This document shows positions 43,562-62,696 of a stretch of 64,000 nt of DNA, piece by piece. The DNA comes from Curvibacter sp. (GTDB lineage: Bacteria; Pseudomonadota; Gammaproteobacteria; Burkholderiales; Burkholderiaceae_C). The position numbers and the translations under genes are program-made. The stretch covers positions 1 through 64,000 of the forward strand of contig JAHRYV010000003.1 in assembly GCA_020621965.1 (NCBI GenBank). The letters are read 5' to 3'. Position 1 is the stretch's first letter; every line of letters starts with the position of its first letter. A model generated the notes under the pieces. It ran no database searches, was not told where the DNA came from, and worked only from the letters and a program-made list of their open reading frames with translations.

Positions 43562-45495
<1,934 letters not shown>

Positions 45496-47146: not shown

Positions 47147-47611
47147 TTACGGTATGTAGATTTTTCTGAGCAACTGCATCAGCGTTCGGCGCTCAGTCGC
47201 GGTCAGGCGCACGGTGGCCTGGTCTTCCAGCTCGGCGGCGGTCACCTCGGCCTGCTTCACCAGCTTCTTGCCCGTCGCTGTCAGGTGCAGGCCCATGGCG
47301 CGGCCGTCGTGCGGGTGCGGGCGGCGTGTGATGAGCTCGCGTCTTTGCAGCTGATTGATCATGCCCACCAGATTGGGCGGCTGGATGCTCAGCGAGGTGC
47401 AGAGCTGGCGCGAGGTGATGCCCGGGTTGTGCGCGATCAGCGACAGCACCGAGAAGTCCACCGGGCGCAGGCCGTAGACCGCCATCTGGCGGAAGAAGGC
47501 GTCCATGATGACCAGGGTGGCGCGCCGGGCGTTGTAGCCGACCAGGCTTTCCAGGTAGCTGGTGTCGACCTGCTCGACGGCGGTGGCGGGGGCGGGTGTA
47601 CGGCTGGCCAT
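47147..47611 (-). CDS. MarR-family regulator of the phenylpropanoid-type cluster
   Basis: A 154-residue MarR protein with dimerisation helices at both ends, a recognition helix in SIQPPNLVGMINQLQRRELITRRPHPHDGRA and the D-x-R wing DGRAMGLHL. MarR repressors of hydroxycinnamate catabolism release DNA on binding the CoA-thioester. It ends the minus-strand cluster, 4 bases after the acyl-CoA dehydrogenase gene stops, so it is probably cotranscribed. The inverted repeat at 57692-57710 in the divergent promoter is its most plausible target. Start MASRTP is by Shine-Dalgarno/family judgement. Confidence 0.85.
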   Translation of the reverse strand: MASRTPAPATAVEQVDTSYLESLVGYNARRATLVIMDAFFRQMAVYGLRPVDFSVLSLIAHNPGITSRQLCTSLSIQPPNLVGMINQLQRRELITRRPHPHDGRAMGLHLTATGKKLVKQAEVTAAELEDQATVRLTATERRTLMQLLRKIYIP

Positions 47612-47615
47612 GGCG

Positions 47616-49301
47616 TCAGAGCGTTGCCGTTTCGGCCGGCGCCAACTGGCGCTCGATGATCTGCAGGCGCAGATCGAACTCGGGCAGCACCCAGGTCCGC
47701 AGGGCCCGGGCCGGGGCCTGCCAGTGGCCGTCAGCGCCCGCTTCGATGCGCGCGCCGGCCCAGCCCAGCAGGGCCAGCGCCAGCGCCGGCAGAAAGTCGT
47801 CGGCCACCCAGTAGGGCAGAGCGGGCTGCTCGGTCGCCGCCTGGCCCAGGTCGGCGACGCACTGCCGCAGACGGGCAAAACGCTGTCGCACCTCGTGGGT
47901 GCAGGCGGCGTCGGCGGCCAGCTCGTCGAGCAGCGCGCCCAGCGCCGCGCCGCCGTCGCTCAGCACCTTGCGCAGCAGCAGGTCGATGGCCTGGATCTCG
48001 TTGGTGCCCTCGTAGATCATGGTGATGCGGGCGTCGCGCACGATCTGCTCGATGCCCCATTCGCGCACATAACCATGGCCGCCGAAGACCTGCAGGCAGG
48101 CGCTGGAACCCACGAAACCCTGGTTCGTCCAGGCGGCCTTGAGCACCGGCGTGACCAGGCTGCACCAGCGCTGCGCGGCCGCGCGGCGGGCGGGGTCGGC
48201 GTGGTGTCTGGCGATGTCCAGTTCGATGGCCGTGCGGTAGGCCAGCAGACGGCCGCCGTCAATCCAGGCGCGCTGGGTGCTCAGGATGCGCTGGATCGCG
48301 GGATGATCCTCGATCAGGCTGGTCTGGGTGGCGCCGGGCGCGCGCATCTGGCGCCGCTCCTGGGCGTAGGCGCTGGCCTTCTGCCAGGCGGCTTCCAGCA
48401 GGCCGATGCCTTGCAGGGCCACGTGCAGCCGGGCGGCGTTCATCATGACGAACATGGCATTCAGGCCGCGGTGCGGTTCGCCGACCAGCCAGCCGGTGGC
48501 GTCTTCAAAGCGCAGCACGCAGGTCGGGCTGCCGTGCAGGCCCATCTTCTCCTCGATGCGCTCGCAGAACACGCCGTTGCGACTGCCGTCGGGCAGGAGC
48601 TTGGGCGCCAGAAAGAGCGACAGGCCCTTGGGGCCGGGCGGCGCATTCGGCAGGCGCGCCAGCACCAGGTGCACGATGTTGTCGGTCAGGTCGTGCTCGC
48701 CGCCGGAGATGAAGATCTTGCCGCCGCTCAGGGTGTGGCTGCCGTCGGCCTGCGCCACGGCCCGGGTCGCGACCAGGCCCAGGTCGCTGCCGGCCTGCGG
48801 CTCGGTCAGGCACATGGTGGCCAGCCACTCGCCGCTGGCGATCTTCTCCAGATAACGCGCTTTCAGCGCATCGCTGCCGTGGTGCTTGAGGCATTCGTAG
48901 GCGCCGTGCAGCAGACCGGGCGCCATGGTCCAGCCATGGTTGGCTGCGCTCAGCATCTCGTAGAGCATGGCCTCCAGCACGGTGGGCAGGCCCTGGCCGC
49001 CGTCCTCGCTCGCGCAGGCCAGCGCGGGCCAGCCGGCCTGCCAGAAGGCCTGGTAGGCGGCCTTGAAACCCGGCGGCATGGTCACACGGCCGCCCTCGAA
49101 ACGTGCGCCGACCTCGTCGCCGACGCGGTTGAGCGGCGCGATCTCGCTGGCCACGAACTTGCCGGCCTCTTCCAGCACCTGCTGCATGAGTTCGGCGTCG
49201 ACCTCCGCGAAGGCCGGCAGGGCCTGCAACTGGGCCGGCGCCTGCAGCACCTGCGTGAGGATGTAGCGCATCTCGTCGGTGCGCGGTGCGAAGTCGCTCA
49301 T
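47616..49301 (-). CDS. Acyl-CoA dehydrogenase of the cluster
   Basis: A 561-residue acyl-CoA dehydrogenase of the same large type as 37294-39078. It shows TMCLTEPQAGSDLGLVATRA, KIFISGGEHDLTDNIVHL and LQVFGGHGYVREWGIEQIVRDARI with an intact Gly-rich FAD segment. In this context it may desaturate saturated phenylpropanoyl-CoA esters before hydration; that is inference. It starts 3 bases after LivF stops and ends next to the MarR gene. Confidence 0.88.
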   Translation of the reverse strand: MSDFAPRTDEMRYILTQVLQAPAQLQALPAFAEVDAELMQQVLEEAGKFVASEIAPLNRVGDEVGARFEGGRVTMPPGFKAAYQAFWQAGWPALACASEDGGQGLPTVLEAMLYEMLSAANHGWTMAPGLLHGAYECLKHHGSDALKARYLEKIASGEWLATMCLTEPQAGSDLGLVATRAVAQADGSHTLSGGKIFISGGEHDLTDNIVHLVLARLPNAPPGPKGLSLFLAPKLLPDGSRNGVFCERIEEKMGLHGSPTCVLRFEDATGWLVGEPHRGLNAMFVMMNAARLHVALQGIGLLEAAWQKASAYAQERRQMRAPGATQTSLIEDHPAIQRILSTQRAWIDGGRLLAYRTAIELDIARHHADPARRAAAQRWCSLVTPVLKAAWTNQGFVGSSACLQVFGGHGYVREWGIEQIVRDARITMIYEGTNEIQAIDLLLRKVLSDGGAALGALLDELAADAACTHEVRQRFARLRQCVADLGQAATEQPALPYWVADDFLPALALALLGWAGARIEAGADGHWQAPARALRTWVLPEFDLRLQIIERQLAPAETATL

Positions 49302-49304
49302 GAC

Positions 49305-50048
49305 TCAGGCCTTCTGTTTGGCCGCGCCGAGGTAGGTATCGATCACGCGCGCATCCTGGGCCAGCGCGGCGGCCGGGCCCTGCAGGGCGATCTCGCCCAT
49401 CTCCAGCACGTAGCCGTGGTCGGCCACCGCCAGCGCGGCGCGGGCGTTCTGCTCGATCAGCACGATGGTCACGCCGGTTTGGCGCAGGGTCTCGATGATG
49501 GCAAAGATCTCACGCACGATCAGCGGCGCCAGGCCCAGGCTGGGCTCGTCGAGCATGAGCAGCTTCGGCCCCGCCATCAGCGCGCGGCCCACGGCCAACA
49601 TCTGCCGCTCGCCGCCCGAGAGCGTACCGGCCAGCTGGCTGCGGCGCTCCTGCAGGCGCGGGAACAGGGTGTAGACCTCGTCGAGCTTGTCGCGCCAGCG
49701 GGCATTGCCCAGGCGTTTCTGGCGGTAGCCGCCCAGCACCAGGTTGTCCTCGACCGGCATGCTGGAGAACAGCTCGCGTTTTTCCGGCACCAGCGAGATG
49801 CCGCACATCACGCGCTCTTCCAGCGTCAGGCGGGTCATGTCCTCGCCGTCGAAGCGGATCGTGCCCTGGCCGGGCAGGATGCCCATCAGGGTGTTGAGCA
49901 GGGTGGACTTGCCCGCGCCATTGGGGCCGATCACGGTGATCACGCTGCCCTGGTCGGCCTTCAGACTCAGGCCGTGCAGGACTTCGGCGCGGCCATAGCC
50001 GGAACGCAGGTTCTCGACTTGCAGCAGGGGAGTGGTCATTTCGTTCAT
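49305..50048 (-). CDS. Branched-chain-type ABC transporter ATP-binding protein LivF
   Basis: A 247-residue ABC ATPase. Walker A GPNGAGKSTLLNTLMG (near 41), the LivF-type EERVMCGISLVPEKRELF, signature LSGGERQMLAVGRAL, Walker B LLMLDEPSLGLAPL and the H-loop region are all present. The gene starts 3 bases after the LivM-LivG stop; MNEM is used, with a possible alternative at 50039. Part of an importer with the LivH, LivM-LivG fusion and binding-protein genes. Confidence 0.9.
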   Translation of the reverse strand: MNEMTTPLLQVENLRSGYGRAEVLHGLSLKADQGSVITVIGPNGAGKSTLLNTLMGILPGQGTIRFDGEDMTRLTLEERVMCGISLVPEKRELFSSMPVEDNLVLGGYRQKRLGNARWRDKLDEVYTLFPRLQERRSQLAGTLSGGERQMLAVGRALMAGPKLLMLDEPSLGLAPLIVREIFAIIETLRQTGVTIVLIEQNARAALAVADHGYVLEMGEIALQGPAAALAQDARVIDTYLGAAKQKA

Positions 50049-50050
50049 GC

Positions 50051-51820
50051 TCAGTGTTCCGTGCCCAGGTAGGCCGCGCGCACCTTGGGGTCCTGCTGGA
50101 TCTGCGCCGGCGGGCCCTGGGTCAGCAGGGTGCCGAACTCCATCACCACCAGGTGGTCGCAGACGTCCATCACCAGGTCCATGTCGTGTTCCACCAGCAG
50201 GATGCTCATGCCCTCGGCCTGCAACTGGCGCAGCACGGCGACCAGGTCCTGCTTTTCCTTGTGGCGCAGGCCGGCGGCCGGCTCGTCGAGCAGCAGCAGG
50301 GCCGGGTCGCTGCACAGCGCGCGGGCGATCTCCATCAGCCGCTGCAGGCCCATGGCCAGGTTGCCGGCCTGCTCGTGCAGGTAGGCACCCATGCCGATGC
50401 GCTCCAGCTGGCGCTGCGCCTCGCGGTAGAGCTGACGCTCTTCGTCGCGGTTCAGGCGCGTCATGGCGCTGGCCACGCCCTTGCGGCCGCGCAGGTGGGC
50501 GCCCAGGGCCACGTTTTCCAGCACCGTCATGTCGGGGATCATCTTGACGTGCTGGAAGGTGCGCGCCATGCCGCGGCGGGCGATCTGGCGCGAGGGCAGG
50601 CCGTCGAGCGGCGCGCCGGCGAACAGCACGTGGCCGCGGGTCATCCTGAGCACGCCGGTCACCAGGTTGAAGGTGGTGGACTTGCCGGCGCCGTTGGGGC
50701 CGATCAGGCCGACGATCTGGCCGGCGCGGATCTGGAAGCTGATGTCGTTGACCGCGACCAGGCCGCCGAACTCCTTGCGGATGGCCTGCACGTCCAGCAG
50801 CAACTCGCCGGCGGCGGGTTTGGCGCGTTCGGGCAGCGGCGCGGCGTCGCCCCAGTCGTTGGTGCGCTGGCGCCGCGGCAGCTTCTTCTCCACCATGGAC
50901 CACAGGCCGTCGGGCAGGTACTTGAGCACCAGCACCAGGGTGATTCCGAAGACGATGATCTCGTAGCTGCCGCTGGTGCCGATCAGCCGCGGCAGCAGCA
51001 CCTGCAGCTGGTCGTCCAGCAGCTTGACCAGGCCGGCGCCCACCAGCGCGCCCCAGACGTGGCCGACGCCGCCGACCACGGCCATGAACAGGTACTCGAT
51101 GCCCATCTTCAGGCCGAAGGCCGTGGGGCTGACCGAGCGCTGGAAGTGCGCGAACAGCCAGCCCGAGAGTGCGGCCAGCACCGCGGCGAGCACGAAGATG
51201 GTGACCTTGTAGCGGAAGGTGTCGATACCCATGGCCTCGGCCATCTGGGCGCCGTTCTTCAGCGAGCGGATGGCGCGGCCGGCGCGCGAGTCCAGCAGGT
51301 TGAGCACGGCCAGCGCGGCCACCAGCACGATGGCCCAGACCAGCACGAAGAAGCCGCGCCCCTCGCCGAAGTCGAAACCGCCCAGGCCCAGGGTCTTGAT
51401 GCCCGTGATGCCGTCGTATTTGCCCAGCGCGTCGAGATTGCCCATCAGGTAATAGAGCGACAGGCCCCAGGCGATGGTGGCCAGCGGCAGGTAGTGGCCC
51501 GACATACGCAGCGTGATCAGGGCCAGCAGCAGCGCACAGACGGCGGTCAGCGCCAGGCCCAGGGGCAGGGTCAGCCAGGGCGAGGCCCCCATCTGCACCG
51601 TCAGCACGGCGGTGGTGTAGGCGCCGATGCCGACGAAGGCTGCCTGGCCGAAGGAGGTCAGGCCGCCCACGCCGGTGAGCAGCACCAGGCCCAGGCAGGT
51701 CAGGCTGTACACGCCGATGGTGTTGAGCTGGGTGAACCAGAAGTCCGGCAGCGGCAGCACGGTCAGCAGCGGGATGGCGATGGCGAGGGCCAGCAGGCCC
51801 AGGGTACGAGGCGACTTCAT
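50051..51820 (-). CDS. Fused branched-chain-type permease LivM and ATPase LivG
   Basis: A 589-residue fusion. Residues 1-300 form the LivM permease with about eight segments (GVGGLTSFGQAAFVGIGAY and MGIEYLFMAVVGGVGHVWGALVGA). Residues 335-589 form LivG: LDVQAIRKEFGGLVAVNDISF, Walker A GPNGAGKSTTFNLVTG, the LivG insert GMARTFQHVKMIPDMTVLENV, then Walker B LLLLDEPAAGL. The C-loop reads NLAMGLQRLMEIARAL, deviating from LSGGQ at several positions, although LivG signatures are often poor. Such fusions occur in Burkholderiales aromatic-uptake clusters. One base separates it from the LivH stop. Confidence 0.9.
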   Translation of the reverse strand: MKSPRTLGLLALAIAIPLLTVLPLPDFWFTQLNTIGVYSLTCLGLVLLTGVGGLTSFGQAAFVGIGAYTTAVLTVQMGASPWLTLPLGLALTAVCALLLALITLRMSGHYLPLATIAWGLSLYYLMGNLDALGKYDGITGIKTLGLGGFDFGEGRGFFVLVWAIVLVAALAVLNLLDSRAGRAIRSLKNGAQMAEAMGIDTFRYKVTIFVLAAVLAALSGWLFAHFQRSVSPTAFGLKMGIEYLFMAVVGGVGHVWGALVGAGLVKLLDDQLQVLLPRLIGTSGSYEIIVFGITLVLVLKYLPDGLWSMVEKKLPRRQRTNDWGDAAPLPERAKPAAGELLLDVQAIRKEFGGLVAVNDISFQIRAGQIVGLIGPNGAGKSTTFNLVTGVLRMTRGHVLFAGAPLDGLPSRQIARRGMARTFQHVKMIPDMTVLENVALGAHLRGRKGVASAMTRLNRDEERQLYREAQRQLERIGMGAYLHEQAGNLAMGLQRLMEIARALCSDPALLLLDEPAAGLRHKEKQDLVAVLRQLQAEGMSILLVEHDMDLVMDVCDHLVVMEFGTLLTQGPPAQIQQDPKVRAAYLGTEH

Positions 51821-51821
51821 A

Positions 51822-52862
51822 TCAGTGGTCCTCGTCCGAATGCGAGCTGTACAGGGAGCGCACCAGCAGCACGGGCAGGATGACGGTGAACACGATGACT
51901 TCCTTGAAGGCGCTGGCCCAGAAAGAGCCGAAGGATTCGATGATGCCGACGAACATGGCGCCGATCAGCGCGCCCGGGTAGCTCGACAGGCCGGCGACGA
52001 CCGCGGCCACGAAGCCCTTGAGGCCGATGATGAAACCCGAGTCGTAGAAGACGGTGGTGGTGGGGCCGATCAGCAGGCCCGAGAGCGCGCCGATCAGCGC
52101 TGCCATGGTGAAACTCAGCTGGCCGGCGGCATGGCTGGAGATGCCCATCAGGCGCGCGCCCAGGCGGTTGACCGCGGTGGCGCGCAGCGCCTTGCCGAAC
52201 AGCGAGCGCTCGAAGAACAGCCACAGCAGCACGATCAGCGCCAGCGAGCTCAGGCCGATGATGATGGCCTGGCCTGAGAGCATGACCGGGCCCAGGTTCA
52301 GGCGCAGGTCCCAGAAGGCGGGGTTGCGGAAACCTTCGGCGCCGAAGAACAGCAGGCCCAGGCCGGTGAGGGCGAAGTGCACACCCACCGAGACGATCAA
52401 CAGCACCAGCGGGGTGGCCGACTCCAGCGACTGGTAGGCCACGCGATACAGCAGCGGGCCGAAGGCGGTGACCACGGCCACGGCCAGCAGGGCCTGCACC
52501 AGCAGGTGGAACTGCTGCGGCGCGGCCCAGATGGTGAGCAGCGAGACGAGCACGGGGGCGATCAGCATCTTGAGGGCCGGCTTGAGGGCGGTGCGCAGGT
52601 CGCGGTGGTGGCGCCAGCCGGTGTACAGCTCCATCAGTGCGGCGGTGCCGGCCAGGATCAGCAGCAGCCAGACCGTGCCGGGCACGCGCCCGGTCTGCAG
52701 GATGGCCAGGGTCAGGGCGCCGTAGGCGACGAACTCGCCCTGGGGAATGAAGATGACGCGTGTGACGGCGAACACGAGCACGGTAGCCAGGCCCAGCAGT
52801 GCGTAGATGGCACCGTTGGTCAGGCCGTCGAGCAGCAGAATGCTCGCGATAGACGAATCCAT
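51822..52862 (-). CDS. Branched-chain-type ABC permease LivH
   Basis: A 346-residue permease with about eight hydrophobic segments; it is slightly longer than the typical 290-300 residues, with an insertion around 75-110. Conserved features are [22 protein letters not shown] and the cytoplasmic EAA-like loop [18 protein letters not shown], then [24 protein letters not shown]. Partner of the LivM-LivG fusion. 109 bases after the binding-protein gene. Confidence 0.9.
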
Positions 52863-52971
52863 GGGACGGGTCTCGGCAGTAGGAGGAAAGAAGACCGGGA
52901 GGGACCGGGCGCCGGCGTCAGCACGCCAGCGCCCGGCACGGACAGGCGCTCAGGCCTGCCGCGGGGGCGTT

Positions 52972-54105
52972 TTACTGGACGACAACGAACTTGCCGTCCT
53001 TGACCTGCAGCAGCACGGCGGTCTCGTTGGTGTAGCCCCAGTGGTCCGTGGCGCTCCAGTTCATCACGCCGTGCGAGAACACGGTGCGGCCCATGGTTTC
53101 CATGGCGTCGCGCAGCGCGGCGCGGAACTCAGGCGTGCCGGGTTTGGCCTTCTTCAGCGCCACGGGCAGGATCTTCTGCAGCACGATGGCCGCATCGTAG
53201 GAGTGGGCGGCAAACTGGTTGCGGCTGCCCGGGCCGTAGGCCTTCTCGTAGTTCGTGACGAAATCCACCGCGGCTTTCTTGGACGGGTGGCTGTCGGGCA
53301 GCTGCTCGGCGACCACGGCCGGGCCGGAGGACACGTAACCGCCTTCGACGTCCTTGCCGCCGATGCGCACCAGATCCGGCGTGGCGGCGGCGTGCGTCTG
53401 GTATATCTTGCCCTTGTAGCCGCGCTCGACCAGGGCCTTGTGCGGCATGGCCGCGCCCGAGCCCGAAGCCACCACCAGGATGGCCTGGGGGTTGGCCGAG
53501 CTCAGCTTGAGGGCCTGCGGCGTGACGCTGGTGTCGGTGCGCGCGAAACGCTCGACCGCGACCATCTTGATGCCGGCCTTTTCCAGCGCCGGGTTCATGG
53601 CCTTGAGCCAGATCTCGCCGTAGGCGTCGGCATAACCGAGGAAACCCACGGTCTTGACGCCGGTCTTTTTCATGTGTTCGACGATGGGGTAGGCGATCAC
53701 GTCGGCGCCCTGCGGCAGGCGGAACAGCCAGCGCTCCTGCTCCGGCGGCCCGCCCACGGGCGAGACCGCGAGCTGCACGGTCTTGGCATCGGCGGCCAGC
53801 GGGATCATGGCGGCCGACACCGGCGTGATGGACGAGCCGATGATCATGTCGACCTTGTCCTCGGTGATGAAGCGGCGTGCGTTGTTCGCGCCCTTGCCCG
53901 GGTCGGAGGCATCGTCGAGGATGATCAGGTTGACCTTCTCGCCGGCAATGGTCTTGGGAAACAGCTTGAACTGGTTGTTCACCGGGATGCCCAGGCCGGA
54001 GCCAGGACCGGTGAGCGAGAGGCTCACGCCGATGTTGACGTCGGCCAGGGCAGTGCCGCAGGCCAGTGCGACCAGGGTGGCCAGCAGGGTAGAGCGTAGT
54101 TTCAT
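52972..54105 (-). CDS. Periplasmic binding protein of the Liv-type importer
   Basis: A 377-residue type I periplasmic binding protein. The signal peptide is MKLRSTLLATLVALACGTALA. The mature part opens NIGVSLSLTGPGSGLGIPV and has IIGSSITPVSAAMIPLAAD. Several binding proteins of this form in Burkholderiales and Rhodopseudomonas bind lignin-derived aromatic acids rather than amino acids, and this location supports that. A gap of about 100 bases separates it from the SDR gene. Confidence 0.87.
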   Translation of the reverse strand: MKLRSTLLATLVALACGTALADVNIGVSLSLTGPGSGLGIPVNNQFKLFPKTIAGEKVNLIILDDASDPGKGANNARRFITEDKVDMIIGSSITPVSAAMIPLAADAKTVQLAVSPVGGPPEQERWLFRLPQGADVIAYPIVEHMKKTGVKTVGFLGYADAYGEIWLKAMNPALEKAGIKMVAVERFARTDTSVTPQALKLSSANPQAILVVASGSGAAMPHKALVERGYKGKIYQTHAAATPDLVRIGGKDVEGGYVSSGPAVVAEQLPDSHPSKKAAVDFVTNYEKAYGPGSRNQFAAHSYDAAIVLQKILPVALKKAKPGTPEFRAALRDAMETMGRTVFSHGVMNWSATDHWGYTNETAVLLQVKDGKFVVVQ

Positions 54106-54204
54106 GGTGGTCTCCTCGTTGGGGTTAAAACACAGTGGGGTGCAGTATCGAAGCTGGACGCGCGGCTGTCTGCTTGGGGTTTACGTGTAGCCCTGGGCCG
54201 GGTC

Positions 54205-54969
54205 TCAGCGCGGCGCCATGCGCAGCGCGCCGTCCAGGCGGATCACCTCGCCGTTGAGGTGGCCGTTGGTGACGATGTGGCAGGCCAGCTGGGCGAACTC
54301 CTCGGGTTTGCCCAGGCGCGGCGGGAAGGGGATGGAGGCGGCCAGCGATTGCTGCACGGCCTCGGGCAGCTCCTTCATCAGCGGCGTGGCGAACAGGCCC
54401 GGCGCCACGGTGCAGACGCGGATGCCGTGCTGCGCCAGATCGCGCGCCATCGGCAGGGTCATGCCGACCACGCCGCCCTTGGAGGCGCTGTAGGCCTGCT
54501 GGCCGACCTGGCCGTCGAAGGCGGCCACGGAGGCGGTAAACATCATCACACCGCGTTCGCCGTCGTCCAGCGCCGGCAGCTTCACGCACTGCGCCGCAAA
54601 GAGGCGGCTGATGTTGTAGCTGCCGATCAGGTTGACGTTGACCACGCGCGCAAAGTCTTCCAGCGGGGCGGGATTGCCGTCCTTGCCGACGATGCGCTTG
54701 GCGCTGCCGATGCCGGCGATGTTCATCAGGATGCGCGCCGGGCCGTGGGCGGCGGCCGCCTTGGCCAGCGCGGCGTTCACGCTGTCGGTATTCGTGATGT
54801 CGCACGAGCAAGCGACGCCGCCGATCTCGGCCGCCACTTTCTCGGCCAGCGCGGCGTTCACGTCCAGCACGGCGACCTTGGCGCCCAGGCGGGCCAGTTC
54901 GCGCGCCGTGGCCTCGCCCAGACCCGAGGCGCCGCCGGTCACGAGTGCTGCTTGTCCTTCGATCTTCAT
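54205..54969 (-). CDS. SDR-family 3-hydroxyacyl-CoA dehydrogenase
   Basis: A 254-residue short-chain dehydrogenase of the HSD17B10-like group. NAD motif TGGASGLGEATARELARLG at the N-terminus, NIAGIGSAKRI, and the catalytic YxxxK in QQAYSASKGGVVGMTLPMARDLA. In context it is the candidate for oxidising the 3-hydroxy-3-arylpropanoyl-CoA intermediate to the beta-keto-thioester. 11 bases after the CoA-ligase stop; one operon. Confidence 0.88.
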   Translation of the reverse strand: MKIEGQAALVTGGASGLGEATARELARLGAKVAVLDVNAALAEKVAAEIGGVACSCDITNTDSVNAALAKAAAAHGPARILMNIAGIGSAKRIVGKDGNPAPLEDFARVVNVNLIGSYNISRLFAAQCVKLPALDDGERGVMMFTASVAAFDGQVGQQAYSASKGGVVGMTLPMARDLAQHGIRVCTVAPGLFATPLMKELPEAVQQSLAASIPFPPRLGKPEEFAQLACHIVTNGHLNGEVIRLDGALRMAPR

Positions 54970-54980
54970 CTTTTTTCTCC

Positions 54981-56852
54981 TCAGGGCTGGGGCAGGATGA
55001 TGCCGGGCGCGCTGTTGTCGTGCAGGGCCTGCACCAGGGCGTCGCGGTGTTTGAGCACGGCACGCTGGTTGATCGAACCCTTGTCGGTGACCTCGCCCTT
55101 GTCGATGGAGGGCGGCTCGGCCAGCAGCAGGGCGCGCGCGATGCGGTTGGCGCTACCGGTGGCCTGGCGGGCCAGCTCGTCGAGCACGGCCTGCATCCGG
55201 TCGCGCACCGGCGCGCTGGCCAGCACGGCCTCCCACGGGGCGTCGGCACCCAGGCCGCTGACCGTGCGGCAGGCCGGGGACGGGAAGATCAGGGCGCCGA
55301 CTTCCTTCATGTTCAGGCCGGTCAGCACCACGTCCTGCACATAAGGCGCGCCGGTGACGATGACCTTGGCGCGCAGCGGGCCCACGCTGACGAAGGTGCC
55401 GGTGGCGAGCTTGAAATCCTCGGCGATGCGGCCGTCGAATTTGAGGCCGCGGTGCACGTCCTGCGGGTCGATCCACTGCACGGCGTCGCCGGTGCACAGA
55501 TAACCTTCCTCGTCGAAAACTTCGCGTGTGGCCTGCTCGGAGCGCCAGTAGCCGGGTGTGACGTTGGGGCCCTTGTAGCGCACCTCGGTCTTGCCGTCCA
55601 CGTCGACCAGCTTGAGTGTCATGCCCGGCACCGGTACGCCGATGTCGCCGGCTTTCACGTTGGGGCTGTTGACGAACATGGCCGAGGGGGCGGACTCGGT
55701 CATGCCCAGACCGGTGGCCATGACGATGCGTTCGCCGACCTCGGCCTGCGCCGTGGCGTGCAGGCTGTCCCACACGGGCTGGGCCAGGCCGGCGCCGGAG
55801 TAGAAGAACATACGCACGCGCGACAGCAGGTTCTTGCGCAGCGCGGCGTCGGTCTTCATGGCCTGGGCGATCATCTCGAAGCCGGTGGGCACGTTGAAGT
55901 ACAGCGTGGGTGCGATCTCGCGCAGGTTGCGCAGGGTCTCGCCGATCAGCGCCGCGGTGGGTTTGCCGTCGTCGATGTAGAGCGTGCCGCCGTGCTGCAG
56001 CGTCAGGCCCACGTTGTGGTTGCCGCCGAAGGTGTGGTTCCAGGGCAGCCAGTCGACGAAGATGGGCGGCGCCTCGGCGATGACCGGCATGGACAGGGTG
56101 ATCTGCTGCAGGTTGGCGCACCACATGCGGTGCGTGTTGATCACCGGCTTGGGCATCTTGGTCGAGCCCGAGGTGAAGAGGAACTTGGCGATGGTGTCGG
56201 GGCGCACCGCGTGCATGGCGGTGTCCACGGCCGGCGTGGCGGCCGTGTGGCGCAGCGTCTCGAACGGGGTGGTCGCACGGCCGTCGATGGCGCCCTGGCC
56301 CAGCACCACCTCGACGTCGCCGGCCACGGTGGCCTGGATGGCGCGGCCGTAGCGCGCGCCGTCGGCGGCATACACGAGGCCGGGCGTGAGCGTGGTCAGT
56401 ACATGCTTGAGCTTGTCGTAGTCCTGGCTCACCGTGGCGTAGGCCGGCGACACCGGGCAATACGGCACGCCGGCGTAGAGGCAGCCCAGCGAGAGCAGGG
56501 CGTGCTCCAGCGTGTTCTCGCTCATGATGACCACCGGGCGCTCGGCGTTGAGCTCGCGGTCCAGCAGGGCCTGGCCGATGCGCCGCGCGCCCTCCAGGGC
56601 CTGGGCATAACTGATGCGCTGCCAGTCGCCGGTGCGGCCTTCGCCCAGCGGCTCGCGCCGGGCCATGAAGGTACGCCCGGGTTCGACCTCGGCCCAGTGC
56701 ACCAGGAAGTCGCTCAGGCGCCGGGCATAGGCGCCCAGCGGCAGTTCGGCCTGCACATAACGGGTGCCGGGGGCACCTTCGCGCACCGATACACGGGTGA
56801 CGCCGAAGTTGACCGGGCGGTAGCGCGGGGTGGTCGTCGTTGTCTCGCTCAT
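54981..56852 (-). CDS. Feruloyl-CoA synthase-type acyl-CoA ligase
   Basis: A 623-residue ATP-dependent acid-CoA ligase of the ANL superfamily. The AMP-binding motif is AKFLFTSGSTKMPKPVINTH near 215, with the family's WLPWNHTFGGNHNVG, MATGLGMTESAPSAMF and YLCTGDAVQW. The overall form (tags SGSTKMPKPV and NHTFGG) matches bacterial feruloyl-CoA / p-coumaroyl-CoA synthases. Start ATG 56852 (MSETTT). Follows the crotonase gene by 30 bases on the same strand. Confidence 0.9.
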   Translation of the reverse strand: MSETTTTTPRYRPVNFGVTRVSVREGAPGTRYVQAELPLGAYARRLSDFLVHWAEVEPGRTFMARREPLGEGRTGDWQRISYAQALEGARRIGQALLDRELNAERPVVIMSENTLEHALLSLGCLYAGVPYCPVSPAYATVSQDYDKLKHVLTTLTPGLVYAADGARYGRAIQATVAGDVEVVLGQGAIDGRATTPFETLRHTAATPAVDTAMHAVRPDTIAKFLFTSGSTKMPKPVINTHRMWCANLQQITLSMPVIAEAPPIFVDWLPWNHTFGGNHNVGLTLQHGGTLYIDDGKPTAALIGETLRNLREIAPTLYFNVPTGFEMIAQAMKTDAALRKNLLSRVRMFFYSGAGLAQPVWDSLHATAQAEVGERIVMATGLGMTESAPSAMFVNSPNVKAGDIGVPVPGMTLKLVDVDGKTEVRYKGPNVTPGYWRSEQATREVFDEEGYLCTGDAVQWIDPQDVHRGLKFDGRIAEDFKLATGTFVSVGPLRAKVIVTGAPYVQDVVLTGLNMKEVGALIFPSPACRTVSGLGADAPWEAVLASAPVRDRMQAVLDELARQATGSANRIARALLLAEPPSIDKGEVTDKGSINQRAVLKHRDALVQALHDNSAPGIILPQP

Positions 56853-56882
56853 GGGTCTCAATTCGTTCGCAATATCGGCGGC

Positions 56883-57665
56883 TCAGCCCTTGCTGACCTT
56901 GGCGGCTTTGCCTTCCAGGAAGGCGCGCACGCGTTGTTTGGCTTCCGGGGCGCTCTGGGCGATGGCGGCCATCATGGCTTCGGTCAGGAAACCCTGGTCG
57001 GCCGGCTGCTCGGCGATGCGCGGCAGAGCGTGGATCAGCGCGTAATTGGTCAGCGGGGCGTTCTGCGCCACGCGCACGGCCAGCTCAAAGGCCTTGTCGA
57101 AGGCCGTGCCCTGCGGCACCAGGTACTGCGCCATGCCGATCTTCTCGCCGTCCTGCGCGTTGTAGACGCGGCCGGTGAGCATCATGTCGGTCATGCGCGC
57201 GGCGCCGATCAGGCGCGGGATGCGCACCGCGCCGCCGCCGCCCACGAAGATGCCGCGCGAGCCTTCGGGCAGGGCGTAGAAGGTGCTCTCGTCGGCCACA
57301 CGGATGTGGCAGGCGGCCGCCAGTTCCAGGCCGCCGCCGACCACGGCGCCGTGCAGCGCGGCGATCACCGGCACCGGGCCGTACTGCACCTGTTCCAGGG
57401 CGGCGTGCCACATGCGCGAATGGTGCAGGCCCTGGCCGGCGTCGCGTTCCTTGAGTTCGCTCAGGTCCAGGCCGGCGCAGAAGTGTTCGCCGTCGCCGTC
57501 GATCACGGCGGCGCGCACGCCTTCGGGCATGTCCTCGAACAGACGGCGGATGGCGAGGATGAGGCCGTCGTTGAGCGCGTTACGCTTGGCCGCCCGGGTC
57601 AGGCGGATGACGGCGATTTCCTGCTCTTCGCCACGGCGTTCGAAATGGAGGTCGGGGTTGCTCAT
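56883..57665 (-). CDS. Enoyl-CoA hydratase/crotonase-family protein
   Basis: A 260-residue crotonase. The oxyanion-hole loops are GEHFCAGLDLSELKE and VVGGGLELAAACHIRV, with a catalytic-type Glu in LPEGSRGIFVGGGGAVRIPRLIG. It is not the retro-aldol feruloyl-CoA hydratase-lyase (HCHL) sequence type, so hydration without C-C cleavage is more likely, followed by the SDR dehydrogenase. First gene of the minus-strand operon. Start at ATG 57665; promoter and operator at 57688-57716. Confidence 0.88.
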   Translation of the reverse strand: MSNPDLHFERRGEEQEIAVIRLTRAAKRNALNDGLILAIRRLFEDMPEGVRAAVIDGDGEHFCAGLDLSELKERDAGQGLHHSRMWHAALEQVQYGPVPVIAALHGAVVGGGLELAAACHIRVADESTFYALPEGSRGIFVGGGGAVRIPRLIGAARMTDMMLTGRVYNAQDGEKIGMAQYLVPQGTAFDKAFELAVRVAQNAPLTNYALIHALPRIAEQPADQGFLTEAMMAAIAQSAPEAKQRVRAFLEGKAAKVSKG

Positions 57666-57687
57666 ATTGTGTTTCTTTCGGGAATCG

Positions 57688-57716
57688 ATTATGGTTATGG
57701 AATATAACCAATTCAA
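57688..57716 (-). promoter_or_regulatory. Minus-strand promoter of the catabolic operon
   Basis: On the minus strand: -35 TTGAAT (57716-57711), a 17-base spacer, then -10 CATAAT (57693-57688), ending about 23 bases before the crotonase ATG. Confidence 0.65.
57692..57710. promoter_or_regulatory. Inverted repeat, probable MarR operator
   Basis: TGGTTAT, 5-base spacer, ATAACCA form a perfect 7-bp dyad inside the spacer and -10 of the minus-strand promoter, and 71 bases before the divergent amidohydrolase. Its size (19 bp) fits MarR dimers. Confidence 0.6.
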
Positions 57717-57780
57717 GCCACTGCGCCCTTCTTTTTGTCAGTGTTTACCCTAGGGCTCCGGCCCGAACCAGGAGACGGTC

Positions 57781-58644
57781 ATGGACCACAAGAACCTCGT
57801 CGCCATCGACATCCACACGCACGCTGAGGTCAGCTGCTGGAACCCCTTCGACAACTACGGCGAGGAGTACGACCGCGCGGCGGACAAGTACTTCCGATCA
57901 AACCGGCGACCGACCATCGCCGAGACCATCGCCTACTACCGCGAGCGCAAGATCGGCCTGGTGATGTTCACCGTGGACAGCGAGTCGCAGCTGGGCCGCC
58001 GGCGCATTCCGAACGAGGAGATCGCCGAGGCCGCCAAGGCCAACAGCGACATGATGATGGCCTTCGCCAGCATCGATCCGCACAGGGCAGATGGGCGCGC
58101 GCGAGGCGCGCCCCTGATCGAGGAGCACGGCATCAAGGGTTTCAAGTTCCACCCCACGGCAGGGTTACCACCCTTACGACAAGATGGCCTGCCGATCTAC
58201 GAGGTGATCGCCGAGTACAAGATGCCGGCCATCTTCCACACCGGCCATAGCGGCATCGGCAGCGGCATGCGCTGCGGCGGCGGCCTGCGGCTGGAGTACA
58301 GCAACCCCATGCACCTGGACGACGTGGCGATCAGCTTCCCGGACATGCAGATCGTCATGGCCCACCCCAGTTTCCCCTGGCAGGACGAGGCGCTGAGTGT
58401 GGCCACGCACAAGCCCAATGTATGGATCGATCTCTCGGGCTGGAGCCCCAAGTATTTTCCGAAGCAGCTGGTGCAGTACGCCAACACCCTGCTGAAGGAC
58501 CGCATCCTGTTCGGCTCCGACTACCCGCTGATCACGCCCGAGCGCTGGATGAAGGATTTCGAAGAGGCCGGCTTCAAGCCGGAGGTGATGCCCGGCATCC
58601 TGAAAGGCAATGCGGTGCGCCTGCTGGGCCTGGAGCAGGGCTGA
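57781..58644 (+). CDS. Metal-dependent amidohydrolase, CouO-like beta-ketoacyl-CoA hydrolase candidate
   Basis: A 287-residue TIM-barrel amidohydrolase. Metal ligands: HxH in AIDIHTHAEV; His in IFHTGHSGIG; His in IVMAHPSFPW; Asp in LFGSDYPLI. The rest (LRLEYSNPMHLDDVAISFPD; WIDLSGWSPKYFPKQ) is conserved in a family that includes 4-hydroxyphenyl-beta-ketoacyl-CoA hydrolase (CouO), which would split the keto-thioester into acetyl-CoA and an aromatic acid. Two short stretches, 58081-58116 and 58159-58191, read in a wrong frame: MGAREAR and QGYHPYDKMA appear in alternate frames. Each can be restored by inserting three single bases, so errors are suspected. Confidence 0.7.
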   Translation: MDHKNLVAIDIHTHAEVSCWNPFDNYGEEYDRAADKYFRSNRRPTIAETIAYYRERKIGLVMFTVDSESQLGRRRIPNEEIAEAAKANSDMMMAFASIDPHRADGRARGAPLIEEHGIKGFKFHPTAGLPPLRQDGLPIYEVIAEYKMPAIFHTGHSGIGSGMRCGGGLRLEYSNPMHLDDVAISFPDMQIVMAHPSFPWQDEALSVATHKPNVWIDLSGWSPKYFPKQLVQYANTLLKDRILFGSDYPLITPERWMKDFEEAGFKPEVMPGILKGNAVRLLGLEQG

Positions 58645-58670
58645 CACAGCGCGGCGTCGACCGCAACAAA

Positions 58671-58691
58671 AAGCCCCGCGTTGCGGGGCTT
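58671..58691. terminator. Bidirectional terminator between amidohydrolase and MetE-like gene
   Basis: AAGCCCCGC / GCGGGGCTT with a GTT loop, an A-run before and TTCTTT after, between convergent genes. Confidence 0.85.
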
Positions 58692-58728
58692 CTTTCATGG
58701 TGCGAGACGGCGCGTTTCGCGCGGTCGC

Positions 58729-59856
58729 TCAGGCCTTGCCCCAGACTTCCTGCGCCGTTTCCACCACCAGGCGCAGCTTGGCGCGCTGGTCTTCCACGGC
58801 AATGTCGTTGCCGTGCACGGTGCTGGAGAAGCCGCACTGCGGCGACAGGCAGAGCTGGTCCATGGAGACGTACTTGGCGGCCTCGTCGATGCGGCGCTTG
58901 AGATCGTCTTTCGACTCGAGCTTGCCGAACTTGGTGGTCACCAGGCCCAGCACCACGATCTTGCCCGGGGCCAGGTAACGCAGGGGGCGGAAGTCGCCGC
59001 TGCGCTCGTCGTCGTACTCCAGGAAGTAGGCGTCCAGGTTCATTTCCTTGAGCAGGGCTTCGGCCACCGGCTCGTAGTTGCCCGAGGCCGCGTGCGTGCT
59101 CTTGAAGTTGCCGCGGCACAGGTGCATGGCCAGGGTCATGCCGGCGGGCTTTTGCGCCACCACTTTGTTGATGAACTTGGCGTAGCGGTGCGGCAGCTCG
59201 TTGGGGTCGTCACCGCGCTGGCGGGCGGCTTCGCGCATCTTCTCGTCGCACAGATAGGCCAGGTTGGTGTCGTCCATCTGCACATAGGTGCAGCCGGCCG
59301 CGGCCAGCGAACGCAGCTCGTCGCCGTAGGCTTTCGCCACGTCGTCATAGAAGGTGGGCTCCAGCTCGGGGTAATGGTCCTTGCTGATGCCGGCGCGCCC
59401 GCCGCGGAAGTGCAGCATGGTGGGCGAGGGGATGGTCACCTTGGCCACGGCGCCGCGGCCCGGGGCGATCTGGCTCTTGAGGTACTGGAAGTCGGCGAGC
59501 TGGATGTCCTTGACGTGGCGCACCTTGTCGATCACACGCATGACGGGCGGGGCCAGTTCCTTGGTGCCGTCGGGTTTGATCACGGTGACCGGCACGTCGG
59601 TCTTGACGCCGCCGATCTGTTCCAGAAAGTCGATGTGGAAGTAGGTGCGGCGGAACTCGCCGTCGGTGATGCTCTGCAGGCCCACGTCTTCCTGGAACTT
59701 CACGATCTCGGTGATGGCCTTGTCTTCCACCTTGCGCAGTTGCTCGGCGTTCATCTCGCCCTTGGCCTTCTGCTCACGCGCTTCGAGCAGGTACTTGGGG
59801 CGCAGGAAGCTGCCGACATGGTCGGCGCGGAACGGGGGGGTGGTGCGTAAGGTCAT
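58729..59856 (-). CDS. MetE-like (cobalamin-independent methionine synthase II family) protein
   Basis: A 375-residue protein of the single-domain MetE-like YxjG/YxjH group. Motifs include PPFRADHVGSFLRPKYL, YVQMDDTNLAYL, AMHLCRGNF and the C-terminal LSPQCGFSSTVHG with a zinc-type Cys in SPQCGF and another His/Cys in MHLCRGN. Full MetE has two such domains; this is about half length. Zinc-dependent methyl transfer between thiols is the family theme. Its substrate is unknown; next to an aromatic cluster it might handle methyl groups from O-demethylation. ATG 59856 with AGGAG is chosen. Divergent from the binding-protein gene. Confidence 0.75.
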   Translation of the reverse strand: MTLRTTPPFRADHVGSFLRPKYLLEAREQKAKGEMNAEQLRKVEDKAITEIVKFQEDVGLQSITDGEFRRTYFHIDFLEQIGGVKTDVPVTVIKPDGTKELAPPVMRVIDKVRHVKDIQLADFQYLKSQIAPGRGAVAKVTIPSPTMLHFRGGRAGISKDHYPELEPTFYDDVAKAYGDELRSLAAAGCTYVQMDDTNLAYLCDEKMREAARQRGDDPNELPHRYAKFINKVVAQKPAGMTLAMHLCRGNFKSTHAASGNYEPVAEALLKEMNLDAYFLEYDDERSGDFRPLRYLAPGKIVVLGLVTTKFGKLESKDDLKRRIDEAAKYVSMDQLCLSPQCGFSSTVHGNDIAVEDQRAKLRLVVETAQEVWGKA

Positions 59857-59957
59857 GAGTTTCTCCTGCGGCTTTGGGGGATGCGTGCCTGTCGTGTTGG
59901 TGATCATTCAGGGTACGGACTGTGGATTATTAACCAGTTCGTGCCGCTAAATGTGCC

Positions 59958-60071: not shown

Positions 60072-61217
60072 ATGCAGCCAATCAACAAGTTCACCAAGAG
60101 CGCCAGCGCTTTTCTATTGGGGGTTTCCGCCCTGTTCGGCCTGCCGGCCGCGGTCCAAGCGCAGGACATCGTGATCGGCCAAGTCGGGCCCTTCACCGGC
60201 CTGCCGGTGCCCGATGCCCTGCAGATCAGCCAGGGGGCCAAGGCCTATATCGCCCAGGTCAACAAGGCCGGTGGCGTACACGGGCGCAAGATCTCCTATT
60301 TCGAGGTGGATGACACCTACAAGCCCGACGGCTTCGTCGCCGCCATGGAGCAGGCCATGCAGCGCAGGCCGGTGGCCCTGATCTCCCCGGTCGGATCGGC
60401 GTCCTTGAAGCGCATGCTGGACGACAAGCTGCTGGACAAGTACGACGTCGTGGTCATGAACGCCGTGCCGGGCGCCGAAGCCCTGCGCAATCCCGGCCAT
60501 CCGCGCCTCTTCCATGTGCGCGCCGGGGACAAGCAGCAGCTCGAGAAGATCGTGAACCATGCCCGCACGCTGGGCATCCTCAAGCTGGGTGTGCTGCACC
60601 AGAACATCCCCATGGGCGTCTCCGGCATGAAGGTGGTGGCCGACGAGGCGACCCGCCTGACCGGGATGGAGGTCAAGGGCTACGAGGGCTCCATCAACCC
60701 GGAACAAATGGCCAAGGCGGCCCAGGACGTGGCGAATCTCAACGCCCAGGGTGTGCTGGTGATCGGCGCGCCGCCGTTTGCCTCGGCCGGTGTGGCGCAG
60801 TTGCGCAAGATCGGCGTGACGCAGTCCATCTTCATCCTGGCCGACACCTCGCCCGGCCTGCTCATGAAGGTCGCGGGCGATTCCGCACGCGGTGTCGGCA
60901 TCGCCCAGATCTATCCGAATCCCAACGGCCGGACCACCACGCTCATGCGCGACTTCCAGACCGCGATGAAGGCGGCCTACCCGGAGGTGACGTCCTTTGC
61001 GTCTTTCCAGCTCGAGGGTTATCTGTCCGCGCGCATCGTGATCGAGGGCCTGCGCCGCTCCAAGGACGTCACCAAGTCCGAAGCCCTGGCCAAGGCGCTG
61101 GTGGCCATGGGTGAGCTGGATTTCGACGGCTACCGTGTCGACTTCTCCAAAGGCCCGGTCGGCGGCCGCTTCGTGGACATCGCGGTGGTCGACATCTCGG
61201 GCCGCCTGCGCTACTGA
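60072..61217 (+). CDS. Periplasmic binding protein, Liv type (second importer)
   Basis: A 381-residue type I periplasmic binding protein. Signal peptide ends in PAAVQAQ. Mature start DIVIGQVGPFTGLPVPDALQIS; ends SKGPVGGRFVDIAVVDISG. Start ATG 60072 (MQPINKF) chosen; a longer frame to 60000 covers the inverted repeats. A strong terminator follows it, so it is transcribed apart from the next binding-protein gene. Confidence 0.85.
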   Translation: MQPINKFTKSASAFLLGVSALFGLPAAVQAQDIVIGQVGPFTGLPVPDALQISQGAKAYIAQVNKAGGVHGRKISYFEVDDTYKPDGFVAAMEQAMQRRPVALISPVGSASLKRMLDDKLLDKYDVVVMNAVPGAEALRNPGHPRLFHVRAGDKQQLEKIVNHARTLGILKLGVLHQNIPMGVSGMKVVADEATRLTGMEVKGYEGSINPEQMAKAAQDVANLNAQGVLVIGAPPFASAGVAQLRKIGVTQSIFILADTSPGLLMKVAGDSARGVGIAQIYPNPNGRTTTLMRDFQTAMKAAYPEVTSFASFQLEGYLSARIVIEGLRRSKDVTKSEALAKALVAMGELDFDGYRVDFSKGPVGGRFVDIAVVDISGRLRY

Positions 61218-61236
61218 CCCTTTGCACCGCGCTGCC

Positions 61237-61273
61237 AACGAACACAGGGCCCGCGTGGCCCTGTGTTCGTTTA
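61237..61273 (+). terminator. Strong terminator after the first plus-strand binding-protein gene
   Basis: A perfect 15-bp stem (61237-61251 with 61257-61271) around CGCGT, followed by TTT. Confidence 0.85.
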
Positions 61274-61295
61274 TGCTTCAGATGGCTGTCTATAA

Positions 61296-61316
61296 GATAT
61301 GTCATTTCGCTATATC
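61296..61316. promoter_or_regulatory. Second GATAT-N11-ATATC dyad
   Basis: Same inverted arms and 11-base spacing as 59958-59978, 120 bases before the second binding-protein gene. Confidence 0.5.
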
Positions 61317-61435
61317 TATCAGTCCGAAATTTGACTTGCGGCTGACGGGATTTGGGGCGAAAGTAGCCACCTTCGCGAACGGCCGCCACGTGCGCGAGCA
61401 GTCGTGTAGCCATAACGCATATTTAGGAGTCTTCA

Positions 61436-62611
61436 ATGTTGAACAAGCGAGTCTTTCTGAGCGCCTCCATGCTGGCCCTGGCAGCGGTCTCCTCGACCAC
61501 CGTGCTGGCCGCTGAGCCGTTCAAGATCGGCCTGATCCTGCCCATGACCGGTCAGCAGGCTTCCACCGGCCGCCAGATCGAAGCGGCCGCCAAGCTCTAC
61601 ATGGCCCAACACGGAGACACCGTCGCCGGCCGCAAGGTCCAGCTGATCGTCAAGGACGACACCAGCGTGCCCGACGTCACCAAGCGCCTGGCGCAGGAAC
61701 TGGTGGTCAACGACAAGGTCAACGTGCTGGCCGGCTTCGGCATCACGCCCTCGGCCTTTGCCACCGCGCCGATCGCCACCCAGTCCAAGACCCCGATGGT
61801 CGTGATGGCCGCCGCCACCTCCAGCATCACCAACGCCTCGCCCTACGTCGTGCGCACCAGCTTCACGCTGCCGCAGGCCTCGGTCTCCATGGCCGACTGG
61901 GCCACCGCCAAGGGCGGCATCAAGAAGGTCGTGACCCTGGTCAGCGACTACGGCCCGGGCATCGACGCCGAGAAGTACTTCAAGGACCGTTTCGTCCTCA
62001 ACGGCGGCACCATCGTCGACACCCTGCGCGTGCCGCTGCGCAACCCCGACTTCGCCCCCTTCCTGCAGAAGGTGCGCGACGCCAAGCCCGACGCCCTGTT
62101 CGTCTTCGTGCCCTCGGGCGCCGGCGCGGCCGTCATGAAGCAGTTCCTGGAGCGCGGCATGGACAAGGCCGGCATCAAGCTCATCGGCACCGGCGACCTC
62201 ACCGATGACGACCAGCTCAACGACATGGGCGACGGCGCCATCGGCGTGGTCACGGCACACCACTACGGTGCCCACCACCCCTCGGCCGTGAACAAGAAGT
62301 TCGTCGAAGCCTTCAAGAAGGCCAACAAGGGCATGCGCCCGAACTTCATGGCCGTGGGCGGTTATGACGGCATGCGCGTGATCTACGAAGCGCTCAAGGC
62401 TTCCAAGGGCCAGGGCGGCGGCGACGGCCTGCTCGCCGCGATGAAGGGTCAAGTGTTCGAGAGCCCGCGCGGCCCGATGTTCATCGACGCCCAGACCCGC
62501 GACGTCGTGCACAACATCTACCTGCGCAAGGTGGAGCGTGTCGGTGGCGAACTGCACAACGTGGAGTTCGACGTCATCAAGGACGTCAAGGACCCCGGCA
62601 AGGCCAAGTGA
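61436..62611 (+). CDS. Periplasmic binding protein, Liv type
   Basis: A 391-residue type I periplasmic binding protein. Signal peptide ends TTVLA. Mature start EPFKIGLILPMTGQQASTGRQIEAA; YDGMRVIYEAL near the C-terminus. It precedes LivH and LivM of this set, separated by a terminator-like hairpin, so extra binding protein relative to permease may be made. A ligand is not readable. Confidence 0.88.
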   Translation: MLNKRVFLSASMLALAAVSSTTVLAAEPFKIGLILPMTGQQASTGRQIEAAAKLYMAQHGDTVAGRKVQLIVKDDTSVPDVTKRLAQELVVNDKVNVLAGFGITPSAFATAPIATQSKTPMVVMAAATSSITNASPYVVRTSFTLPQASVSMADWATAKGGIKKVVTLVSDYGPGIDAEKYFKDRFVLNGGTIVDTLRVPLRNPDFAPFLQKVRDAKPDALFVFVPSGAGAAVMKQFLERGMDKAGIKLIGTGDLTDDDQLNDMGDGAIGVVTAHHYGAHHPSAVNKKFVEAFKKANKGMRPNFMAVGGYDGMRVIYEALKASKGQGGGDGLLAAMKGQVFESPRGPMFIDAQTRDVVHNIYLRKVERVGGELHNVEFDVIKDVKDPGKAK

Positions 62612-62618
62612 TGACCAG

Positions 62619-62662
62619 CCCATGGGCGCCTCCGGTCAGGGGGTGTCCATGGGTTTTTTTTT
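62619..62662 (+). terminator. Terminator / attenuator between binding protein and LivH genes
   Basis: CCCATGG and CCATGGG arms (extended by G-U pairs) and a run of nine T, in the gap before LivH. Confidence 0.75.
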
Positions 62663-62696
62663 GTCCTGACCTGACCACGGCCTTTGCACACTACTC

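Follow-up and report, generated by a model that had tools for sequence, protein, structure and literature searches.

The first 64,000 nucleotides of contig JAHRYV010000003.1 from Curvibacter sp. (assembly GCA_020621965.1), referred to here as the window, carry a gene cluster which we assign, with a probability of roughly 80%, to a coenzyme A (CoA)-dependent pathway that deacetylates hydroxycinnamates by beta-oxidation and ends in a hydrolytic step. The window is the start of a 143-kb contig in a genome of 3.04 Mb (82 contigs, 86% complete). From sequence and context, i.e. the gene families, the conserved CouP contacts, a non-HCHL crotonase, a recurring operator, an exchange of endings and the linkage to ring cleavage, we infer each of the enzymatic steps, the pairing of regulator and operator, and the precise substrates as follows. 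A Liv-type importer with a CouP-like binding protein would take up ferulate, p-coumarate, caffeate or cinnamate, the ligase would form the CoA thioester, the crotonase would hydrate the double bond without lyase cleavage, the short-chain dehydrogenase/reductase (SDR) would oxidise the beta-hydroxyl, and the amidohydrolase would split the beta-keto-thioester by hydrolysis, giving a benzoate-type acid and acetyl-CoA. A MarR protein would repress both divergent units from a palindrome until hydroxycinnamoyl-CoA is formed. The product would proceed to protocatechuate, with vanAB encoded elsewhere in the genome, and further to 4,5-cleavage genes located beyond the cluster on the same contig.

The gene set and gene order claimed in the first-pass annotation, which was made from the letters of the sequence, were all found in the open reading frame translations and in family and domain profile matches (Table 1). 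Genes of the minus-strand row are separated by approximately 1-30 bp; only the two gaps flanking the binding-protein gene are longer, at approximately 100 bp each (starts taken from the translations). Thiolase, HCHL and aldehyde dehydrogenase queries were searched against the window at a threshold of E 1e-10. The first-pass statement that neither a thiolase nor an HCHL-type lyase is present agrees with these searches, as the thiolase query gave zero matches and the HCHL query matched the crotonase alone, at 24% identity. Four thiolases are encoded elsewhere in the genome. No close match to HCHL was found in the whole genome, the best by E-value being 29% identical.

Among solved structures the binding protein matched seven relatives at E 2.3e-89 or better, followed by the next at 8.7e-14. 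One of the seven is 4jb0 (E 1.2e-105), the CouP protein of Rhodopseudomonas palustris with ferulate. Papers are cited here by PMC identifier from excerpts, and what is said of them refers to these excerpts. CouP contacts ferulate through Thr102, Arg197, Ser222, Gln305 and His309 (PMC3610893). The window protein is 49% identical to CouP over 309 compared columns and all five contacts are identical at the aligned positions; phenylpropenoid uptake is therefore the best reading of the importer. A narrower variant of our reading, with overlapping odds, is that the cluster serves mainly other aryl-propanoates, such as cinnamate or phenylpropionate derivatives, with hydroxycinnamates as minor substrates. 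Such use would be allowed by the acyl-CoA dehydrogenase and by the broad binding of CouP, which includes cinnamate (PMC3610893), but the two residues contacting the 4-hydroxyl in CouP, Gln305 and His309, are kept in the window protein, and a benzoate-type importer and protocatechuate genes adjoin the cluster. We regard this variant as rather unlikely.

Counts over relatives' loci refer to the best 80 of 582 relatives. The acyl-CoA dehydrogenase, for which all NCBIfam equivalogs were far under cut-off, is present in 24 of these 80 loci and possibly admits dihydro-cinnamates. The LivM-LivG fusion is real and recurs in relatives: it occurs together with the binding protein in 24/80 loci, in 22 of which a single alignment covers 87% or more of it. 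A Terrarubrum plasmid whose cluster has a similar gene content carries it as a 1773-bp gene. As CouPSTU (PMC3610893) consists of the binding protein and three further genes, the fusion may exist there too.

The ligase, predicted to be of the feruloyl-CoA-synthase type, is 41-53% identical to plasmid genes annotated as feruloyl-CoA synthase among the 40 matches listed. The SDR stayed under the cut-off of all 25 NCBIfam families listed. It is 51-58% identical to the SDRs of two Rhizobium clusters and one Paracoccus cluster, and by sequence and position it is the co-located candidate for the beta-hydroxyacyl-CoA dehydrogenase.

A tree of 28 crotonase sequences placed the window crotonase in a clade of 18 (support 100/99), all linked to an amidohydrolase, with HCHL outside. 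We predict that it is a hydratase without lyase activity. If it instead acted as a hydratase/lyase releasing an aldehyde like HCHL, the route would be retro-aldol and non-beta-oxidative, and the SDR would act elsewhere. The CouP importer indeed comes from R. palustris, for which a route other than beta-oxidation is favoured (PMC3610893). In addition, on a Paraburkholderia plasmid the ligase and the amidohydrolase have as neighbours an aldehyde dehydrogenase and a crotonase with 82.5% identity to HCHL. However, the window crotonase is only 24% identical to HCHL (which itself scores 504 bits with PRK09120) and stands in its separate clade, HCHL at 45% identity or more was found in 0/80 relatives' loci and 0/91 family loci, and aldehyde dehydrogenase queries gave zero matches in the window. 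The HCHL role was rejected because of the identity and the tree position, and we hold the retro-aldol route to be very improbable.

The Paraburkholderia case (sp. PREW-6R, locus L009, 7623-12891) is the one amidohydrolase-linked crotonase row that groups with HCHL. HCHL, aldehyde dehydrogenase, a feruloyl-CoA-synthase-type ligase and the amidohydrolase stand there in a single row, so that both pathway logics meet. This mixed case weighs against a strict rule.

The amidohydrolase belongs to PF04909 and has no NCBIfam match. Its nearest named relatives are mostly Comamonadaceae, and a search of viral contigs gave zero relatives. Plasmid relatives from Rhizobium, Paracoccus and Terrarubrum lie in the same kind of cluster, one Rhizobium relative being annotated as 4-hydroxyphenyl-beta-ketoacyl-CoA hydrolase. 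Other relatives lie in an hpe-like operon comprising a two-part kinase, a biotin-dependent carboxylase, a HAD phosphatase, an acyl-CoA ligase and the amidohydrolase. The window protein is 71% (Pseudomonas putida), 55% (Rhizobium leguminosarum) and 49% (Rhodococcus sp. JS3073) identical to the proteins in the HpeF position of these operons, and in JS3073 all six hpe queries were matched. The first-pass comparison with CouO is kept here as a prediction: with 49-71% identity to hpe-like-operon proteins, the protein is probably of CouO/HpeF type. HpeF is 95% identical to CouO of Rhodococcus jostii RHA1 (PMC9618137). Relatives of this one enzyme type, sitting in hpe-like operons as well as in clusters of the present kind, would hence stand at the end of two unrelated routes that lead to the same aryl-beta-keto-CoA. 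The ligase is present at 69 of the 80 amidohydrolase loci, and at 52 of the 58 whose upstream sequence spans 10 kb or more. On the P. putida YC-AE1 plasmid (locus L010, 4274-12864) a Tm-1-like ATP-binding protein occupies the kinase position of the hpe-like operon.

The last step was surveyed in 150 family genomes, evenly drawn from a larger group with 90% completeness asked for and with the window's own genome included. The survey was seeded with the crotonase in order to avoid selecting on the amidohydrolase. The crotonase was found in 91 genomes (E 1e-70), the amidohydrolase in 57 (E 1e-60) and the operon-type thiolase, with a query from a relative's cluster, in 31 (E 1e-130); all 57 amidohydrolase genomes and all 31 thiolase genomes also have the crotonase. 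Within 8 kb of the crotonase, 43 of the 91 genomes have the amidohydrolase only, 25 the thiolase only, 5 both and 18 neither. This near-exclusion has a Fisher p of 1.4e-6, uncorrected for kinship, and direct reading of the 91 loci gave the same split. The SDR is present in 62 loci, 58 of which have at least one ending, and in 6 loci the thiolase occupies the divergent position of the amidohydrolase. A 4HBT-type thioesterase accompanies 19/30 thiolase loci, 9/43 amidohydrolase-only loci and 8/18 loci with neither ending. According to the well-supported branches of a quick tree of joined crotonase, ligase and SDR sequences (87 rows), the thiolase-only label must have changed at least 7 times and the amidohydrolase-only label at least 10 times. 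These results suggest that hydrolase and thiolase are two exchangeable endings. No report of exchangeable endings in Comamonadaceae was found in the titles and abstract starts listed by searches of an open-licence library.

At the thresholds applied, eight family loci (L174, L187, L219, L220, L221, L224, L227, L241) lack an SDR, an amidohydrolase and a thiolase but carry crotonase and thioesterase, six of them also the ligase.

Between the starts of the crotonase and the amidohydrolase lies the sequence TGGTTATGGAATATAACCA, the arms of which are exactly palindromic. Even allowing up to 3 mismatches, the window contains no second match (0.28 expected by chance). The palindrome had been missed by the first-pass annotation. 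The core GTTAT-N5-ATAAC was scanned over 1.58 Mb from 90 relatives' regions, each covering approximately 9 kb on either side of the crotonase and less at contig ends. All 32 occurrences fall in a 410-bp zone around the crotonase start, upstream of the crotonase. The core is present in 14/42 amidohydrolase-only regions, 11/25 thiolase-only regions, 3/5 with both and 4/18 with neither, i.e. it is common to both endings. The palindrome is most likely the MarR site. The CouR repressor of RHA1 is released by p-coumaroyl-CoA (PMC4737184), and by analogy of context the window MarR is probably a CoA-thioester-responsive repressor resembling CouR or HcaR (PMC4737184, PMC7797058).

Protocatechuate 4,5-cleavage genes follow at 70.8-74.6 kb of the contig, 12-16 kb past the amidohydrolase. 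They comprise genes whose closest matches are 4-oxalomesaconate hydratase, 2-pyrone-4,6-dicarboxylate hydrolase (a fragment) and the LigK aldolase (a fragment), together with a class III extradiol dioxygenase beta subunit that is of protocatechuate 4,5-dioxygenase type. Among 17 other same-genus genomes with both genes, 11 have the dioxygenase gene on the contig of the amidohydrolase, 15-23 kb apart (by eye); in the remaining 6 the two genes are on different contigs. Both vanA and vanB lie on another contig of the genome. The LigK and 2-pyrone-4,6-dicarboxylate hydrolase genes (contig approximately 71.7-73.3 kb; locus L005, 11662-13282) are fragmentary or contain a stop, possibly through assembly errors.

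A number of results weigh against the assignment of the cluster to hydrolytic deacetylation. The ligase score with PRK12582 (709 bits) is under the subfamily cut-off of 777. The CouO/HpeF-type label is a prediction resting on the hpe-operon relatives and not on the CouO and HpeF sequences themselves. At six of the 58 loci with 10 kb or more of upstream sequence, ligase and hpe genes are both missing, which shows that the amidohydrolase can also occur outside clusters of this kind. The operator core is absent from 58/90 relatives' regions. Neither ending was found at 18 of the 91 crotonase loci, with the amidohydrolase elsewhere in the genome in 7 of these cases and the thiolase elsewhere in 1. 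Independent-pairs sign tests of exclusivity mostly point in the expected direction and are not significant (median p 0.25 to 1, few informative pairs), and exclusivity is therefore an uncorrected association. In this genome, which is 86% complete, pobA had no match over cut-off; of 26 same-genus genomes, this one among them, 24 gave a match at E 1e-30 and 23 a match over cut-off. In the amidohydrolase itself, residues of approximately 102-112 and 127-138 are unlike all 24 aligned relatives and each stretch is one codon shorter. These two stretches look off-frame and may be assembly indels. Residues H12, H14, H195 and D247, presumably the metal ligands as in the superfamily, are outside both.

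The fold also belongs among these points. With an AlphaFold2 model of the amidohydrolase (mean pLDDT 78.5) the nearest structure was 3irs. Decarboxylases came next, those of dihydroxybenzoate and 5-carboxyvanillate ranking high, and LigY, which we take to be a C-C hydrolase, had rank 50. Judged from this model, the fold does not separate hydrolase from decarboxylase. The amidohydrolase could accordingly be a decarboxylase or another enzyme of the amidohydrolase superfamily acting on a downstream aromatic acid, with a thiolase encoded elsewhere finishing the pathway. The fold ranking, the four thiolases elsewhere in the genome and the six loci without ligase fit this alternative. Against it, amidohydrolase orthologs lie in hpe-like operons with a CoA ligase, the amidohydrolase is near-exclusive with the operon thiolase, and the four genomic thiolases are just 31-38% identical to the operon type. 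We consider a decarboxylase role improbable. The sequence of ligation, hydration, oxidation and hydrolysis to an aromatic acid, as proposed in the first pass, is the best reading and is backed, as far as sequence and context go, by the binding protein, the crotonase tree, the hpe-like orthologs, the survey of endings and the operator core common to both endings.

At loci L018, L033, L041, L080, L088 and L090 an amidohydrolase ortholog of 75-88% identity has neither ligase nor hpe genes within reach.

Table 1. Features of the cluster and its flanks, with positions in the window
Feature	Position	Strand	Basis
MarR-family regulator	47147..47611	-	Pfam MarR; below every NCBIfam equivalog cut-off
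Acyl-CoA dehydrogenase, 561 aa	47616..49301	-	Pfam Acyl-CoA_dh N, M and C
LivF-type ATPase	49305..50048	-	Family profile match
LivM-LivG fusion (permease + ATPase)	50051..51820	-	BPD_transp_2 + ABC_tran + BCA_ABC_TP_C
LivH-type permease	51822..52862	-	Family profile match
CouP-like periplasmic binding protein, predicted for phenylpropenoids	52972..54105	-	4jb0 E 1.2e-105; 5/5 CouP contacts
SDR, predicted aryl-beta-hydroxyacyl-CoA dehydrogenase	54205..54969	-	FabG-like SDR
Feruloyl-CoA-synthase-type ligase	54981..56852	-	PRK12582 709 bits
Crotonase, predicted hydroxycinnamoyl-CoA hydratase, not HCHL	56883..57665	-	PRK08150 over cut-off
Perfect palindrome TGGTTAT-N5-ATAACCA, predicted operator	57692..57710	no strand	Exact arms
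CouO/HpeF-type amidohydrolase, predicted aryl-beta-ketoacyl-CoA hydrolase	57781..58644	+	PF04909
MetE-C-like protein	58729..59907	-	PF01717
Second Liv importer, beginning: two binding proteins + LivH, predicted for benzoate derivatives	60072..63572	+	

Past the MetE-like gene a second Liv operon starts, with two binding proteins. The nearest solved structures of its second binding protein are 4ey3, 4eyg and 4eyk (E 3e-160), which we take to be binding proteins for benzoate derivatives. This benzoate-type importer and the protocatechuate 4,5-cleavage genes had been missed by the earlier annotation. Elsewhere in the window, the dnaK frame (43506-44819, minus strand) turns into unlike sequence midway and is apparently split over frames (by eye), as expected from assembly indels.

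The MetE-like gene was found in 48 of the 150 family genomes (E 1e-130), 39 of which have the amidohydrolase (Fisher 6.5e-14 on 150 genomes). Counted per genome and not per crotonase neighbourhood, it is present in 37/50 amidohydrolase-only genomes, 1/24 thiolase-only genomes, 2/7 with both and 6/10 having the crotonase with neither; 2 further genomes have it without crotonase. The co-occurrence first suggested that the MetE-like protein works directly with the amidohydrolase. This idea was weakened by the surroundings of 20 of the 48 copies, selected for lying apart from the amidohydrolase: of these 20 regions, 12 have a VanA-type oxygenase and 12 the binding protein of the second Liv importer. 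Tree-aware tests of the link between the MetE-like gene and the endings were underpowered. The gene most likely belongs to methoxy-aromatic use and not to side-chain shortening. The first pass had called the arrangement that includes this neighbour less familiar; in relatives the gene is often near vanillate demethylase genes.

A wider reading for Comamonadaceae is possible, and we put it forward tentatively, as one that is somewhat doubtful. The endings would be interchangeable under one operator, either a CouO-type hydrolase releasing the free aromatic acid or a thiolase often with a hotdog thioesterase, and the choice would be set by the substrate. The hydrolytic form would go with methoxylated phenylpropanoids, because the MetE-like gene, which in relatives is often found close to vanAB, favours amidohydrolase-only over thiolase-only genomes, and the MetE-like protein would handle the one-carbon unit from vanillate demethylation.

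As stated in the first pass, the pathway type is known; examples are the cou genes of R. jostii RHA1 (PMC4737184) and region SpG8-1b of Agrobacterium fabrum (PMC7797058). The RHA1 system (CouL, CouO, CouR and others) shares with the pathway predicted here CoA ligation, beta-oxidative cleavage, an amidohydrolase as the last step to the aromatic acid and a MarR regulator. In contrast to the present cluster, it belongs to an Actinobacterium and sends its product to the beta-ketoadipate pathway, and the excerpt mentions no Liv importer, fusion or acyl-CoA dehydrogenase (PMC4737184). SpG8-1b (Atu1415, 1416, 1417, 1421 and HcaR) has a matching enzyme set of phenylhydroxypropionyl-CoA dehydrogenase, feruloyl-CoA synthase, enoyl-CoA hydratase, a last enzyme giving vanillate and a MarR repressor (PMC7797058). 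It differs in that the last enzyme is named a beta-keto-thiolase; the region also has its own tetrahydrofolate-dependent vanillate demethylase, with no CouP importer mentioned in the excerpt (PMC7797058). R. palustris couAB with CouPSTU shares the CouP-type binding protein and an ABC importer beside ligase, hydratase and MarR, whereas there the non-beta-oxidation route is favoured and the excerpt mentions no amidohydrolase (PMC3610893). The hpe pathway of Rhodococcus rhodochrous GD02 shares the predicted last reaction and, in HpeF, the orthologous enzyme type, but its beta-keto-CoA is derived from hydroxyacetophenones via phosphorylation, carboxylation, dephosphorylation and CoA ligation (PMC9618137). 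Finally, operons with thiolase and 4HBT-like thioesterase (Limnohabitans, Hydrogenophaga and others) have the same SDR, ligase and crotonase, with importer parts in 8/10 named loci, and differ by a thiolytic ending beside the amidohydrolase or in its place.

The arrangement had been called less familiar in the first pass. This does not hold for the importer type, as a dedicated ABC importer for phenylpropenoids, CouPSTU, has already been described (PMC3610893), and the fusion recurs in relatives. Pathway and importer are thus of known kinds, present here in a clear and widely conserved form. The present analysis adds an operator that recurs among relatives, the finding that hydrolase and thiolase have repeatedly replaced each other, and an association of the hydrolase form with vanillate genes.

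In lignin use, shortening the side chains of ferulate and p-coumarate acts as a funnel step. As late as 2018, a genome study on a Comamonas strain described the enzymes behind the beta-oxidative route as still unclear (PMC6307125). The present comparison names a candidate enzyme set, with importer and operator, across the family. Furthermore, relatives that differ in the last enzyme offer a natural experiment for comparing the hydrolytic with the thiolytic ending.

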